Assembly: GCA_027858955.1 (NCBI GenBank)
Contig: JAQIBR010000110.1
Coordinates: 1 to 45,345 of the forward strand
DNA: 45,345 nt
Direction: 5' to 3'
DNA from: Bacteroidales bacterium
GTDB taxonomy: Bacteria; Bacteroidota; Bacteroidia; Bacteroidales; UBA12170
Shown here: positions 1,472-38,796 of the stretch, piece by piece
Layout of the letters: the number at the start of each line of letters is the position of its first letter
How positions within the stretch are numbered: the first letter of the stretch is position 1
The notes under the pieces: model-generated
What the model was told of the DNA's origin: nothing
Seen by the model: the letters and a program-made list of their open reading frames with translations, nothing else
Databases searched by the model: none
Program-made: the position numbers and the translations under genes

Positions 1472-2752
1472 ATGTTAGTAGAAATTATATTGCATGGTCA
1501 ATTATTAGGAACGGCTGAATGGAATGCTGAAAAGCAAAGTTCCACTTTTCAATATAATAACGAAATAGTTAAAGTCATAGAGCCTTCACCGATTTTAATG
1601 CCAACAGAAGAAAGAATATTTGAAACAAACAGAGACCATATCAACTTTCACAATTTACCTTATTTATTATCTGATTCAATGCCAGATGATTTTGGTAATG
1701 CCATGATGAAAGAATGGCTAAAACAAAGAGATTTATCCATTGATGACATCAATCCTGTTGACAGATTAACTTATGTGGGCAAAAGAGGTATGGGAGCATT
1801 GGAGTATATACCAGCTAATCACAGAGAAGATGATAATAGCCTTGTCGATATTAGTGAAATATATGATGTTGCAAAAAGCGTTTTAGAAAGCAAGAAAGAA
1901 ACTTCCTTTTCTGATTTAGACAAAGATAGTCTTACTGAAATACTGAGAATAGGCACATCCGTTGGAGGAGCAAGGGCTAAAGCTCTGATTGCCATAAAAA
2001 GAGATCAAAACAAAAAAATTGAAGAAATAAGATCCGGCGACATCATGCAACCAAAGGGCTATTCGTATTGGCTACTTAAAATAGACGGAGCAAATAAACA
2101 AAGCCTGGGAGAAAGTGAAGGTATGGGCAAAATAGAATTTGCTTATTACGAATTAGCAAAAGAAGCCGGGATTGAAATCTCAGAAAGCACTTTGCATGAA
2201 GAAAATGGCAGGTTTCACTTTTTAACAAAACGATTTGACCGTACTGATAATGGTGAAAAAATCCATATGCAAACACTCAGTACTTTAGCAGGCATTGATT
2301 ACAAAATTCAAAAAGCTAGCTCTTATGAAACTTTGTTCAGGGTTATGAAAAGGCTTCAACTTCCATACAAACAATATGAACAGCAATATAGACGCATGTT
2401 GTTCAATGTTGTTTCAAGAAATCATGATGATCATGTAAAGAACTTCTCATTCTTAATGAACAAGGATGGAAATTGGCAAATATCTCCGGCATATGACATT
2501 TGTTTTTCATATAGTCCAAGTGGAACATGGACTAATGTACACCAATCATCTATTAATGGTAAATACGATAATTTTACTAAAGACGATTTATTAGCCTTTG
2601 CTAAAATTTTTGGAATCAAAAAAGCCAATAAAATTATAGAAGAAGTTGTATCGGCAGTGAATCAATGGCCTAAAATAGCATCTGAAATTGATATTCCTCA
2701 AGAAAAAATAAAATACATTAATAAGTATTTAAGAACTAAAGATTTTTATTAA
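1472..2752 (+). CDS. hipA: HipA-like Ser/Thr kinase toxin, full length
   Basis: N-terminal HipA subdomain, GGARAKA(L) motif, NVVSRNHDDHVKNFSFL catalytic region and SPAYDICFS motif. Confidence 0.92.
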   Translation: MLVEIILHGQLLGTAEWNAEKQSSTFQYNNEIVKVIEPSPILMPTEERIFETNRDHINFHNLPYLLSDSMPDDFGNAMMKEWLKQRDLSIDDINPVDRLTYVGKRGMGALEYIPANHREDDNSLVDISEIYDVAKSVLESKKETSFSDLDKDSLTEILRIGTSVGGARAKALIAIKRDQNKKIEEIRSGDIMQPKGYSYWLLKIDGANKQSLGESEGMGKIEFAYYELAKEAGIEISESTLHEENGRFHFLTKRFDRTDNGEKIHMQTLSTLAGIDYKIQKASSYETLFRVMKRLQLPYKQYEQQYRRMLFNVVSRNHDDHVKNFSFLMNKDGNWQISPAYDICFSYSPSGTWTNVHQSSINGKYDNFTKDDLLAFAKIFGIKKANKIIEEVVSAVNQWPKIASEIDIPQEKIKYINKYLRTKDFY

Positions 2753-32210: not shown

Positions 32211-33596
32211 CTATTTTCTCACTTTCTTAATAAAGTCTTCCACTTCGGGCACACCTCCTTGGAAAACTAAATAGCCATTATAAGGCTCACGTGAAGTAAT
32301 TTCATCGTTAATAGGAGTAAGCATTATTTTTTTTACTTCTTCAGGGTCTTCTGTTTGCCCAAGCGCCCAACCCAATTTAATGTATGCAACTTCGGGCAAC
32401 ATATTTCCTGCGGGAATAACTCCCATAGCCAACATATCACGGCCTGTATCATATACAAACATATGAACATAACCCCAAAGAGTTTGTAGAGTCATATAAA
32501 TTGAAACGCCTTTTTTATATGCTCTTTCTATGGCGGGGTATAGTTCTTTATTTACATGTCCTAATCCTGTTCCGACAATTATTATTCCTTTATAACCGGC
32601 ATCTGTCATGGCATCTAAAACATCGGGTTTCATAGCGGGGTAATAATAAAGCATAGTTACTTTATCGCTGAAAAAAGGCGAAATTTTCACGTTTTTGTCT
32701 TTGCGCCTATGATTGTATTCTTTTTTAATGAGTTTTATTTCACCACGCCTTACCATTGCTAAAGGTGTATCACCAATTGTACGAAATGTTGACCGATAAG
32801 AAGAATGCATTTTGCGTACACGAGTTCCTTTATGAAGTAGAGCATAATCATCTGAAGTCGGGCCAAACATACATACCATCACTTCGGCAATATCGCTGTG
32901 CCCTGCGGTATGCATAGCATGTATAAGATTCAGTGCTGCATCTGAGCTAGGTCGATCAGACGAACGCTGAGAACCTACCAAAACAATAGGAACCGGCGAA
33001 TTTTGAATCATAAAAGTAAGAGCAGCTCCCGTATGGTGCAAAGTATCCGTTCCGTGCCCAATAACAATTCCGTCGACACCTTTTTCAATTTCACGACCAA
33101 TTGCTTTTGCTAAGGCGATATATTGATTAGGGCCCATATTTTCGGAAAAAACTGCAAAGACTTTTTCTGTTTCAAGATTACATATTTCTGCCAATTCGGG
33201 AACGGCGCCATATAATTCGCCAGGTGAAAACGCAGGAATGACAGCACCTGTTCTGTAATCTAATCGCGAAGCTATAGTTCCTCCGGTACCAAATAATTTC
33301 ACTTTTGGCAAACCCTGCGTTACAGGAAATTCTTTTTCAGGAATTTTATAGTTGGCCTTCTTATAACCTGTTTCTTTCATCAATATAATCGTCTGAATAT
33401 CAATACCAATATTGTAACCGGTTGGTATTTTCATAACAATATGTTGGTCGTCGTCATTTTCTGCCCGCGGCAAAACTGTTCCAGTAAAATTCCCACGACT
33501 GGTTTCCACATCAGCTTGACCCCAAACACGAACCTGAAATTTTTTCAGAATTTGCAATGATTCTCCTTTGTATCCTTGAAATATATCGTCTGTCAT
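32211..33596 (-). CDS. gatD: Glu-tRNA(Gln) amidotransferase subunit D (archaeal-type GatD)
   Basis: N-terminal GatD domain (GYNIGIDI) followed by asparaginase domain LFGTGGTIASRLDYRTGAVIPAFSPGEL, GIVIGHGTDTLHHTGAAL, VGSQRSSDRPSSDAALNL. Confidence 0.9.
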   Translation of the reverse strand: MTDDIFQGYKGESLQILKKFQVRVWGQADVETSRGNFTGTVLPRAENDDDQHIVMKIPTGYNIGIDIQTIILMKETGYKKANYKIPEKEFPVTQGLPKVKLFGTGGTIASRLDYRTGAVIPAFSPGELYGAVPELAEICNLETEKVFAVFSENMGPNQYIALAKAIGREIEKGVDGIVIGHGTDTLHHTGAALTFMIQNSPVPIVLVGSQRSSDRPSSDAALNLIHAMHTAGHSDIAEVMVCMFGPTSDDYALLHKGTRVRKMHSSYRSTFRTIGDTPLAMVRRGEIKLIKKEYNHRRKDKNVKISPFFSDKVTMLYYYPAMKPDVLDAMTDAGYKGIIIVGTGLGHVNKELYPAIERAYKKGVSIYMTLQTLWGYVHMFVYDTGRDMLAMGVIPAGNMLPEVAYIKLGWALGQTEDPEEVKKIMLTPINDEITSREPYNGYLVFQGGVPEVEDFIKKVRK

Positions 33597-33654
33597 TCTG
33601 TTTTCTTTTGTTATTCCTGTGCTTGATTTAAAATATTGAACATCATCGAAAAGT

Positions 33655-33785
33655 TAATGTTAGCCACTAATGCACGAATGAATAAAATGTAACTTGTCTA
33701 TTGCAATGCCATTTCACTAAAATATATAATACTTTTAATTCGTGTATTCGTGGCCTTTATTGTTAACTTTTCATGGCATTATATT
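33655..33785. repeat. Intergenic inverted repeat between gatE and gatD
   Basis: GAAAAGTTAATGTTAGCCACTAATGCACGAATGAAT ... TAATTCGTGTATTCGTGGCCTTTATTGTTAACTTTTC. Confidence 0.75.
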
Positions 33786-33792
33786 CTGATAT

Positions 33793-35772
33793 TTAATCTA
33801 CTCGTTTACAAACCAAATTAACCTCTTTTTGCAAATCTGCCAGTGCGATATTTCCTAAAGCTAATTTACGTAGCTGTCCCATAATCCAATTTTGTGCATT
33901 ATTGCTGTTTTGATTTATTCCAATCTGCTTAAATTTTTCTTTCAAAAAATGAACCTGATCTAAGATCTGAGTTCGTTTTACTTTTTTAAATTTAATACCT
34001 ATTAACACCGAATCGAACTGCATTTTTGGATGTTCGAAAAGTAATTTTAGCATTTCTTCGGCAATTTCCAATTCTATTTTTTTATCAATCAAATACTTAA
34101 ACAAATTAAAAATCAGTTTATATTTAAAATTGCCTCCGCGATTAAAATGACCTTCAATAAATTTCAGTCGATAACCGAGAAAATTACCCATATACTTTGG
34201 ATCGATATTCAGTTTCTCCTTTATCTCCAATATCAACGGAAAGAGATTATTCGTAAAAAGATAAGCGTAAGTGTCTTCCGAAACGCCCCATTCTTTAAGT
34301 TGATTATAGCGTTCAATAACATCTGAAGGCAAATCTTTATTTAGATTTTCAATATAATCATTTGCCAACGGAATAGGAGCCGAATCCGTATCAGGGTACA
34401 TACGATCTGCACCTGGCAGAACTCGTTCAAAAATTGTAGTACCGTTTTCAAACGATTTCCTAGTTTCCGGAGGAACTCCATCAAATGCCATTAAGCATCT
34501 TTCTTCAATTGTTTCAAAAGCAGTTTTGATATCTTCCTTTGGGCCCCAAAAAACTAGTTGTGCATCGTCATTGTCAGCTTTTAGTATTTTCCTAATCTTA
34601 TTAAAATCATCTTCGGATATTATTATATCTTGACTTTCGGAATCCGTCATATTAGGCTCTTCCAAGCAGGCAATTACCTTTAATCTATCAGTAATCTCAT
34701 CGGCAAAAACTTTTCCAGGCTGAGTAAAATGCGAAAGTATTTTGTTGAATTTAGGTAAGTTAACTGCAAAAATTTGAAATTCTTTTTCGTTCGCAAAATC
34801 AATTTCTTTACTTGGTAATTGAAACAGGTAATAATTAATTTCTTCGGAATTCATTTTCCAATCGGCTTTAGCAATTCTTGCTTTTATTTCTTTTTGAATT
34901 TGTAATAATGCCCATTGTCTATATGCTTCAACATGTGTTAGTTCGGGAATCCAACGTGAATGAGAAACGCCTTTTATTTCTACACGCGTGCCGCCTCTAC
35001 AGCTTACGTTTACGTCTTGTCGTCCTGCCCCAATTCCTGTTCTAACCAATCCCGTACTACGATTTAAAAAACGAATATAATCGCAAGCTTCTTTTACTTC
35101 ATCGGGATTTACCATATCGGGATAAGTCACGGTCTCAATTAAGGGCATTCCCAAACGATCGGTTCTGTATATTCTTTGATGACGGATATCGGAAACTTCG
35201 CGACAGCTATCTTCTTCTATACTTAATTGAATGAGTTTTACGATTTTGTTTTTTAATGGAATTTCACCTTCCACTCCCAAAATAGCTGTTCTTTGGAAAC
35301 CTGTGGGAATACTTCCATCAAGGTACTGTTTTCGAGTAATATGCACCTCACCCACTATATTCAATTTCGATAGCAAAGAAATTTTTAAAGCAATTTCTAA
35401 TGCGTCTCTATTTATCGGAAATGGTGGAGTATCATCAACTTCGTAAGTACAGGCAGTTTCATTTTTAAGTCGATAAGTAATTTCTTTTCGAGTTTTGAAT
35501 TCCATCAGTGCCGTGCCGTCATACTCTCCCAACTCACTGAGTGTCGGTCGCATATGGCGAATAACTTCCGCATCATAATCATCGTGCTTTTGATACTGCC
35601 CAGCAGGGCAATGGCAAAATAGCTTTTCTTTGGTAAGTAGTTGTTGGTGCACTTCTAATCCCGACATAAAACCAATGCGATCGTAATCGGCCTGAACAGC
35701 TTTTTTACGTTCGACATAACCGGCGGTTTTTTTTGTGCTTTGATAGTTCTTTAAAGGATCGAACTTTTTCAT
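33793..35772 (-). CDS. gatE: Glu-tRNA(Gln) amidotransferase subunit E (archaeal-type GatE)
   Basis: SGLEVHQQLLTKEKLFCHCPAG, LDGSIPTGFQRTAILG, SIEEDSCREV, LGMPLIETVTYPD, GTRVEIKGVSHSRWIPE; 659 aa. Confidence 0.92.
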   Translation of the reverse strand: MKKFDPLKNYQSTKKTAGYVERKKAVQADYDRIGFMSGLEVHQQLLTKEKLFCHCPAGQYQKHDDYDAEVIRHMRPTLSELGEYDGTALMEFKTRKEITYRLKNETACTYEVDDTPPFPINRDALEIALKISLLSKLNIVGEVHITRKQYLDGSIPTGFQRTAILGVEGEIPLKNKIVKLIQLSIEEDSCREVSDIRHQRIYRTDRLGMPLIETVTYPDMVNPDEVKEACDYIRFLNRSTGLVRTGIGAGRQDVNVSCRGGTRVEIKGVSHSRWIPELTHVEAYRQWALLQIQKEIKARIAKADWKMNSEEINYYLFQLPSKEIDFANEKEFQIFAVNLPKFNKILSHFTQPGKVFADEITDRLKVIACLEEPNMTDSESQDIIISEDDFNKIRKILKADNDDAQLVFWGPKEDIKTAFETIEERCLMAFDGVPPETRKSFENGTTIFERVLPGADRMYPDTDSAPIPLANDYIENLNKDLPSDVIERYNQLKEWGVSEDTYAYLFTNNLFPLILEIKEKLNIDPKYMGNFLGYRLKFIEGHFNRGGNFKYKLIFNLFKYLIDKKIELEIAEEMLKLLFEHPKMQFDSVLIGIKFKKVKRTQILDQVHFLKEKFKQIGINQNSNNAQNWIMGQLRKLALGNIALADLQKEVNLVCKRVD

Positions 35773-35907: not shown

Positions 35908-36028
35908 TCACAAAGTCGCACAAAGTAACTACACTAAGGAACACAAAGGAAAAATAGGATATAAAACCTTTGTGTACCTTAGTGATATCCTTCGTGTTTA
36001 CCTCGTGTTTACTTCGTGGTAAAAACCT
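35908..36028. repeat. Intergenic imperfect inverted repeat
   Basis: CACAAAGTCGCACAAAGTAACTACACTAAGGAACACAAAGG ... CCTTTGTGTACCTTAGTGATATCCTTCGTG...TTCGTGG. Confidence 0.75.
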
Positions 36029-36084
36029 TAAAAAGTAAAATCTATTTAATTGGTTTTTTCTTATTTTTGACGAAAGTCTTTTTT

Positions 36085-37434
36085 ATGTACGCCATCATAG
36101 ATGTTGAAACAACAGGAGTAAATGCAAAAAGCGATCGCTTAACCGAAATTGCAATCATCATTTTTGATGGAGAGAAAATTGTAAAAGAGTTCTCAAGCCT
36201 TATCAATCCTGAATGTAAAATCCCTTATCGGATTACTCAAATGACAGGGATTAATAATAAAATGGTTGAAAATGCTCCAAAGTTTTATGAGCTTGCTAAA
36301 GATATTGTTGAGATAACTGAAGGCGTCACTTTTGTGGCTCATAATGCCGCATTTGATTATCGGTTTATTCGCGCAGAATTTGAAAGTCTCGGCTATAATT
36401 TCGAACGTAAAACATTGGATACAATCAAGTTGGCACGTAAATTTATTCCAGGATTAAGAAGTTATAGTTTAGGGAATTTATGTGCTGATATCGGGATTGA
36501 AATAAACAATCGCCACCGTGCAATGGGTGATGCTCAAGCAACAACAGAATTGTTTAAACGAATTTATCAATACAATCCTGATTTGGACGGGGTTTCTTTA
36601 AAAGGATTGCATTTCAATTTAACAAAAGAAAAAATCGATTCTCTTCCTCAAGAAACTGGAGTATATTACTTCTACAATGATAATAAAGAATTGATTTATG
36701 TGGGAAAAAGTACAAATATTCACAGTCGGATTATTTCACATTTAAACAATACAACTTCAAAAAAGGCATTGGAAATGAAAAATCGAATTGCCGATGTTGA
36801 TTATGAACTTTGTGGAAGTGATCTAGTTGCCCTATTGTTAGAATCTGACGAAATAAAGAAGAATCTCCCAATCTATAATCGGGCACAAAGAAGAAGTTTA
36901 CATACTTGGGGATTATATTTTTACGAGAACGAAGAAGGTTACAGCTGTTTTACAATCGAACGTGCTAAAAATACGACTGACACGCCTTTGACTTTATTCT
37001 CTTCAAAGATTCAAGCGCAGGAACAGCTTTTTCTACTTACCGAAAATTATGAACTTTGTCAGAAACTAAATGGTTTGTACCATAATTCCGGGGCTTGTTT
37101 TCAGTACGGAATTAAACTTTGCAAAGGAGCTTGTATAGGCAAAGAAAATACTGAAGATTACAATTTAAGAGTGGATCAAATTAAAAACTATTTTTCACTT
37201 GATCACGATAATTTAATTTTGGTTGATAAAGGCCGATCGAAAGATGAAAAGGCCATTGTAATAATAGAAGAAGGAAGTTATCGAGGATTTGGTTATGTCG
37301 ATGAAAATGTTTTAAATCAGTTGCCAGAAGTTATAAAATCAGGAATAATAAATTATGTTAATAATCGTGATACACAAAGCATTATACGATCTTATTTAAG
37401 ACGAAAAAAAGTTGAACAGATAATATATTTTTAA
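36085..37434 (+). CDS. DnaQ-type DEDDh exonuclease fused to GIY-YIG/UvrC-N-like nuclease
   Basis: MYAIIDVETTG..., FVAHNAAFDYRFIRAEF, HRAMGDAQAT; then TGVYYFYNDNKELIYVGKSTNIHSRIISHL; ATG at 36085 preferred. Confidence 0.92.
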   Translation: MYAIIDVETTGVNAKSDRLTEIAIIIFDGEKIVKEFSSLINPECKIPYRITQMTGINNKMVENAPKFYELAKDIVEITEGVTFVAHNAAFDYRFIRAEFESLGYNFERKTLDTIKLARKFIPGLRSYSLGNLCADIGIEINNRHRAMGDAQATTELFKRIYQYNPDLDGVSLKGLHFNLTKEKIDSLPQETGVYYFYNDNKELIYVGKSTNIHSRIISHLNNTTSKKALEMKNRIADVDYELCGSDLVALLLESDEIKKNLPIYNRAQRRSLHTWGLYFYENEEGYSCFTIERAKNTTDTPLTLFSSKIQAQEQLFLLTENYELCQKLNGLYHNSGACFQYGIKLCKGACIGKENTEDYNLRVDQIKNYFSLDHDNLILVDKGRSKDEKAIVIIEEGSYRGFGYVDENVLNQLPEVIKSGIINYVNNRDTQSIIRSYLRRKKVEQIIYF

Positions 37435-38193: not shown

Positions 38194-38796
38194 CTAATTA
38201 AAATTAGTAAGCAGAAATTTTCTAATATGCATATGTTCCACTCCTTTGTAGTTTGAATCTGCAAAATCATCCATGGAAACTACAATCTTTCTATGATTAT
38301 CGGCAATTTTCAATAAGTTTCCAAATTCTCTCTCATGTACTTTTTCGTCAGGAATCATATAAGCAACTTGAATATAGATTGTTTTGCTACCCCTAATAGC
38401 AACAAAATCAATTTCTTTATCATCAAATTTCCCTATGTAGACTTCAAAATTATCCGTAATTAGTTTATTAAAAACAATATTTTCCAAAACCTTATTAATA
38501 TCTTTCATATTAAAAGTTTGGAGGGAGTTTCTAAGTCCTAAATCTGTAAAATAAAATTTATCGTTTATTTCAAATATTTTACGCCCTCTAATATCAAAGC
38601 GTTTCGCCTTTTTTATAAAAAAAGCATCTTCAAGAAATTGCAAGTATTCAAGAATTAATTTAGTAGAGATGTTAATGTTTTGTGATTTTAAAAAATCACT
38701 TATTCTTTTAGCTGAAAGCAAGCTACCAAGATTATCAGCTAAAAAATGGTTCAAACTTTCTAGGAAAGTGATATTCCTAATATTGTATCTTGCTAC
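38194..38796 (-). pseudogene. C-terminal remnant of AAA_14/DUF4143-type ATPase
   Basis: In-frame VARYNIRNITFLESLNHFLADNLGSLLSAKRISDFLKSQ... matches only the C-terminal half; no Walker motifs; no proper start. Confidence 0.75.

Follow-up and report, generated by a model that had tools for sequence, protein, structure and literature searches.

The window analysed here (the whole stretch of 45,345 nucleotides from a Bacteroidales genome, GCA_027858955.1) encodes GatD and GatE, the subunits of an archaeal-type amidotransferase, in a genome that also possesses a bacterial GlnRS. On present sequence evidence the pair is rather likely to be an active Glu-tRNA(Gln) amidotransferase that provides a second way to Gln-tRNA(Gln) or rescues mischarged tRNA-Gln. 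What the sequences show directly is the family identity, the intact active sites, the gene pairing, the purifying selection, the wide distribution and the coexistence with GlnRS.

The family matches lie far beyond chance and confirm, at the level of sequence, that both open reading frames are genuine and full-length. GatD scores 505 bits against NF003217 (cut-off 310) and 501 bits against TIGR02153 (cut-off 324), and the Pfam domains GatD_N, Asparaginase and Asparaginase_C are all matched over their cut-offs. For GatE, the match to TIGR00134 is a clear pass (396 bits, cut-off 320) and that to NF003107 a narrow one (459 bits, cut-off 456). The GatB models give 122 bits at most and do not reach the GatB equivalog cut-offs. 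The closest solved structures by phmmer are archaeal for both subunits, namely 1zq1 (1zq1_A, 2e-116) and 2d6f (2d6f_A, 4e-113) for GatD, and 1zq1 (1zq1_C, 3e-78) and 2d6f (2d6f_C, 2e-82) for GatE. The gatE gene lies upstream of gatD, both on the minus strand, at the positions first assigned to them (Table 1).

All catalytic residues common to the two solved archaeal enzymes are kept in GatD and GatE. Within the TGGTIAS motif of GatD, TGGT and AS are also invariant when the archaeal rows are included. In the GatE alignment, E40, H42, E186, E187, D188 and R206 (and others) are invariant across the archaeal and Bacteroidota rows. Among the columns common to the two archaeal and the Bacteroidota rows are those of the GLE-H and EED motifs and of the DRLG segment. 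The preliminary description, in which GatD and GatE with intact GGTIAS, HGTDT and GLEVHQQL motifs were reported, is thus borne out by the equivalog matches and the motifs. It was equally right about the archaeal affinity in a bacterial genome, given the best matches to 1zq1 and 2d6f, the bacterial neighbours and the synteny in congeners.

Table 1. Features of the gatE-gatD locus (positions in the window).
Feature	Position	Strand	Details
gatD	32211..33596	-	461 aa; ammonia-releasing subunit, asparaginase-like; immediately follows gatE
GatD N-terminal domain, PF18195 (GatD_N), residues 30-70	33387..33509	-	42.5 bits, cut-off 25.7
TGGTIAS, nucleophile threonine motif, GatD residues 104-110	33267..33287	-	invariant in 20 Bacteroidota GatD rows
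HGTDT, GatD residues 181-185	33042..33056	-	invariant with archaeal GatD
GatD Lys262 (VRKMH motif)	32811..32813	-	invariant with archaeal GatD
gatE-gatD spacer, 196 bp	33597..33792	-	contains 92-bp inverted-repeat element at 33663-33754
gatE	33793..35772	-	659 aa; tRNA-dependent amidotransferase (kinase/transamidase) subunit; NCBIfam, phmmer and model matches
GatB/GatE catalytic domain, GatE residues 37-475	34348..35664	-	Pfam PF02934; split by GatE-specific insertion
GatE insertion domain, residues about 308-428	34489..34851	-	alignable throughout with archaeal GatE; confident in model
GatE helical tail domain, residues about 485-656	33805..34320	-	helices pLDDT about 90; sequence diverged

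In archaeal GatE, the insertion domain is AspRS-like and the helical tail binds tRNA. Both domains are present in the predicted fold of the bacterial GatE, an AlphaFold model (pLDDT 82) built from the window and relative sequences only. The best PDB matches of this model are the archaeal 1zq1_C and 2d6f, ahead of GatB, with a TM of about 0.6 by query and 0.75-0.78 by target, the domain placement being approximate. In the structure search of the model, the matches of the insertion domain to the AspRS fold are weak. The tail has diverged yet can be aligned among the Bacteroidota rows; the archaeal rows align only to residue 506/559.

In the window, gatD and gatE are flanked by ordinary bacterial genes, and the gene order is common to two congeneric genomes. 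The gene adjoining gatE (36016-37434, plus strand) encodes a DnaQ-like exonuclease fused to a GIY-YIG nuclease domain and is syntenic in the congeners. Further along, a 186-aa open reading frame (38194-38754, minus strand) matches the PADLOC model PDC-S01 only at its C-terminal part (228-408 of 412) and is probably a truncated gene. A HipA-like kinase, with HipA_C and the N-terminal domain, is encoded at 1472-2752 (plus strand). The arms of the inverted-repeat element in the gatE-gatD spacer, ATTCGTGNATTNGTGGC, occur as two exact matches in opposite orientation, against 0.14 expected by chance. As the same arm pair occurs at a different site in the congener G675 (L181 9459-9539), the element is probably a mobile interspersed repeat. 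No Rfam match to a regulatory RNA was found near gatDE.

Both genes are kept functional by strong purifying selection (dN/dS about 0.05). Between the window and G675, dN/dS amounts to 0.04 for gatE (with dS at 2.3, near saturation) and 0.05 for gatD; in closer pairs elsewhere, gatE ranges over 0.03-0.08 and gatD stands at 0.009. The neighbouring genes show similar values (0.04-0.11). This bears on the idea that GatD would serve only as an asparaginase or glutaminase, with GatE as a passenger. The better conservation of GatD (90% identity to the nearest relative, against 83% for GatE) would fit such an arrangement. However, a dN/dS of about 0.04 and invariant catalytic residues are not those of a passenger, and GatD keeps the GatD_N domain that is missing from plain asparaginases. 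A passenger GatE is therefore considered very improbable.

The gene pair is not a one-off curiosity of its source genome. At the TIGR00134 cut-off, gatE is present in 122 of the 295 sampled genomes of the order (about two fifths), or in 127 when fragments are counted. A phylum-wide sample, followed by TIGR00134, added 29 genomes from other classes, many of which also possess GatB; sampled members of other orders of the same class gave GatB-like scores only. An unusual, single or recent acquisition is supported neither by this distribution nor by the trees, which are structured by taxonomy. Four carriers (G606, G132, G295 and G124) are single-contig assemblies, and binning error can therefore not account for gatDE there.

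Archaeal contamination of the metagenome-assembled genome had to be weighed as well, since the assembly consists of 273 contigs and another of its contigs, C59, does look archaeal. Against it, gatDE lies among bacterial genes that are syntenic in congeners, it recurs in the order and in the single-contig genomes, and its sequences cluster by bacterial taxonomy, apart from the archaeal ones. The probability of contamination is practically negligible.

In 47 of 50 Bacteroidota loci, gatE is followed directly by gatD in the same order and orientation; among the three loci without an adjacent pair, L099 runs to the contig end. Outside the genus, no conserved neighbours of gatE-gatD were seen, and no other gene is consistently linked to the pair. 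In G434 (L174 3701-8887), glnS, gatE and gatD stand in a row on one strand, with glnS 103 bp upstream of gatE, and in G014 (L175) the GlnRS gene adjoins gatDE. Two such cases in some 150 genomes hint at a functional link to Gln-tRNA metabolism but do not prove it.

The GatE tree, for which only two archaeal sequences were usable, contains two deep clades that largely track taxonomy: one of the order (bootstrap/SH-aLRT 100/100) and one of the other classes (97/95). The bacterial sequences group by taxonomy and not with the archaeal ones. When the tree is rooted with GatB, the two archaeal GatE do not enclose the bacterial GatE, although long branches meet at that point. Among 13 genomes of the order, GatE and GlnRS distances are correlated (Mantel r 0.56, p 0.0002), as expected under largely vertical inheritance. 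Nevertheless, the presence of gatE within the order is patchy, changing 25 times across a 121-tip GlnRS tree (40 times in shuffles), and losses or transfers must therefore be frequent.

The horizontal transfer proposed in the preliminary description thus holds only in part. Transfer between the domains is possible and, judging by the trees, would be ancient if it took place, with retention to be considered beside it; an isolated recent transfer is unsupported by the wide, taxonomy-following presence. Wide presence in Bacteroidota without archaeal affinity had been named as an outcome that would speak against transfer. The presence is indeed wide, but the archaeal affinity persists.

Some sequences stand apart. 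G358 (L111/L189), a genome that has GlnRS but not GatB, carries a long-branched GatDE outside both bacterial clades; its GatE and GatD are 39% and 57% identical to those of the window, and the pair is perhaps a separate acquisition. In G156 (L113/L190), from another class, both the GatE and the GatD tree place GatDE with the order type, which suggests that it was transferred between classes or that the contig was misbinned. More archaeal GatE were sought in viral contigs, and none was found. The sole GatE from plasmids is a frame-broken, unannotated copy on the haloarchaeal Natrinema thermotolerans plasmid CP031304.1 (L115 6001-7625).

The preliminary description had called for the genome to be checked for GlnRS, GatCAB and a non-discriminating GluRS. 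The source genome contains one bacterial, full-length GlnRS (739 bits to TIGR00440), one bacterial GluRS, as well as AspRS, LysRS and AsnRS, and homologues of glutamine synthetase (GlnA). GatB was not found in the assembly, which is 94% complete; PF02934 matches only the GatE described here. The GluRS has an Arg at the position of Arg358 of Thermus thermophilus, which we take to be the mark of an enzyme that discriminates against tRNA-Gln. By its gene content, the genome would not have GatDE as its sole route to Gln-tRNA.

GatDE as the essential, sole route, as in archaea, is indeed a very remote prospect. The lack of GatB would agree with it, but the full-length GlnRS gene contradicts it, unless that GlnRS were inactive. 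Moreover, GlnRS is found in 271 of the 295 genomes of the order (114 of the 127 gatE-positive ones) and in 26 of the 29 gatE-positive genomes of other classes. Its absence is no commoner in the presence of GatE (13 of 127 GatE-positive against 11 of 168 negative genomes, p = 0.29). A dependence on GatDE through loss of GlnRS was rejected for want of enrichment, and also because congeners of several GlnRS-negative genomes have the enzyme, which makes assembly gaps a likely cause of its absence. Compensation for an absent glutamine synthetase was likewise rejected, a GlnA homologue being present.

Archaeal tRNA-Gln is characterised by A1:U72, C12:G23 and A73, and it is at the D-loop and at A1:U72 that GatDE makes contact with it (PMC9499178). 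The native tRNA-Gln(UUG) of the source genome, on a contig near the window in composition, has U1:A72, G12:C23 and A73, and is of the bacterial type. Across the order, tRNA-Gln is devoid of the archaeal elements A1:U72 and C12:G23. U1:A72 is common to relatives with and without gatE, and so is A73, with one exception. No tRNA-Gln feature was seen that separates GatE-positive from GatE-negative genomes among those sampled in the order. As A1:U72 is missing, contacts other than this archaeal one would be needed if a bacterial GatDE were to act on tRNA-Gln.

Several further observations concern these tRNAs. G73 is a known bacterial Gln identity element; the tRNA-Gln of the order has A73 instead. 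A tRNA-Gln, nearly always with the CUG anticodon, lies close to glnS in 29 of 120 genomes of the order (loci L194-L313). The split over GatE-positive (19 of 60) and GatE-negative genomes (10 of 60) gives no clear signal. The D-loop length was rejected as a mark of GatDE, the D-loop type of the glnS-adjacent tRNA-Gln(CUG) being the same with or without gatE. Between the two tRNA-Glu genes at L024 lies a broken copy (1597-1697), in which the start of a third tRNA-Glu is disrupted by unrelated letters.

A tRNA-Gln(CUG) with A1:U72, C12:G23 and A73 does occur in the assembly, on the 3.8 kb contig C59 (G000:C59, L119; L014 1501-1573, minus strand). It was rejected as the partner of GatDE, as the contig looks foreign and no full-length match to the tRNA was found in the 79 other GatE-positive genomes searched, including three congeners; one genome had a 21-base partial match. 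The tetranucleotide composition of C59 falls outside the range of the window (0.236, against a maximum of 0.197), and its main open reading frame, judged by eye, resembles DPANN-archaeal proteins. The contig is probably archaeal contamination of the bin.

In the proposed mechanism, which follows the archaeal one, glutamine or asparagine would serve GatD as the source of ammonia. With this ammonia and ATP, GatE would then turn Glu-tRNA(Gln) into Gln-tRNA(Gln). Given that GlnRS is present as well, the pair would probably provide a second way to Gln-tRNA(Gln) or rescue tRNA-Gln that was mischarged with Glu. The enzymatic activity, tRNA-Gln as the substrate and the source of mischarged tRNA are what we infer here. 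GlnRS makes a second route dispensable, and the absence of archaeal elements from tRNA-Gln and the patchy presence of gatE within the order also count against it. Its weak point is the source of Glu-tRNA(Gln), since the only GluRS has the Arg358 equivalent and looks discriminating. The alternative Gln-tRNA route suggested earlier is plausible, with GlnRS and this GluRS speaking against it; the repurposed amidase suggested beside it found no positive support.

The main rival is that the GatDE chemistry was kept and the substrate was changed, either to another Glu- or Asp-tRNA or to a non-tRNA acid, outside Gln coding. With GlnRS, a discriminating-looking GluRS, AsnRS and a glutamine synthetase homologue there is no obvious need for Gln-tRNA amidation, and the diverged GatE tail domain of the order clade and the bacterial type of tRNA-Gln point the same way. 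On the other hand, the catalytic cradle and the gene pairing are unaltered, glnS-gatE-gatD are linked in one genome and GlnRS is close by in another, and there is no other consistently linked gene. A changed substrate is therefore regarded as unlikely, although less so than the other rivals, and a role on tRNA-Gln is preferred. The wider proposal, rated at a little under even odds, is that many Bacteroidota may possess, beside GlnRS, a second complete and non-homologous route to Gln-tRNA(Gln), an archaeal-type one in which GluRS and GatDE act on a bacterial-type tRNA-Gln, perhaps for fidelity or rescue.

Reviews describe GatDE as found only in archaea (PMC9499178), and as of 2014 the two Gln-tRNA routes were not known to be encoded together in any bacterium. 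A conserved, selected gatDE beside GlnRS in more than 100 bacterial genomes challenges both statements, and dual routes, if true, would break both rules. No published account of a bacterial GatDE was found in the literature searched, which was largely without subscription papers and preprints, and priority is not claimed. The genes are likely already annotated in databases, as NCBIfam models name GatD and GatE; within the same literature, the extent of bacterial GatDE and GlnRS coexistence appears unreported. The protein itself is a family member; the novelty lies in its host, in its occurrence beside GlnRS and in the tRNA context. The finding bears on whether GatDE dates back to the last universal ancestor or was spread afterwards, and it offers a natural system for asking why cells keep an indirect Gln-tRNA route beside a direct one.

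The archaeal GatDE of Pyrococcus abyssi (1zq1) and Methanothermobacter thermautotrophicus (2d6f, with tRNA-Gln) has the same domains, full-length subunits and catalytic residues. The bacterial GatE is 32-36% identical to that of M. thermautotrophicus, whereas the archaeal pair share 56% mutually. Further differences are the diverged GatE tail and the bacterial host, with its GlnRS, its bacterial GluRS and a tRNA-Gln without A1:U72 or C12:G23. Type I L-asparaginase has the catalytic core in common with GatD, but GatD possesses an extra N-terminal domain, is nearly always paired with gatE and gives far higher scores with the GatD models. In the bacterial GatCAB, GatB shares the catalytic domain PF02934 with GatE and the reaction type is the same; the source genome, however, is without GatB, and its GatE stays under the GatB equivalog cut-offs. 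Bdellovibrio, Deinococcus and Thermus keep GatCAB alongside GlnRS and AsnRS, where it serves Asn (PMC4206432). They resemble the present case in that a tRNA-dependent amidotransferase is kept despite direct synthetases, whereas the enzyme described here belongs to the Gln-specific GatDE type and stands beside a glutamine synthetase homologue.
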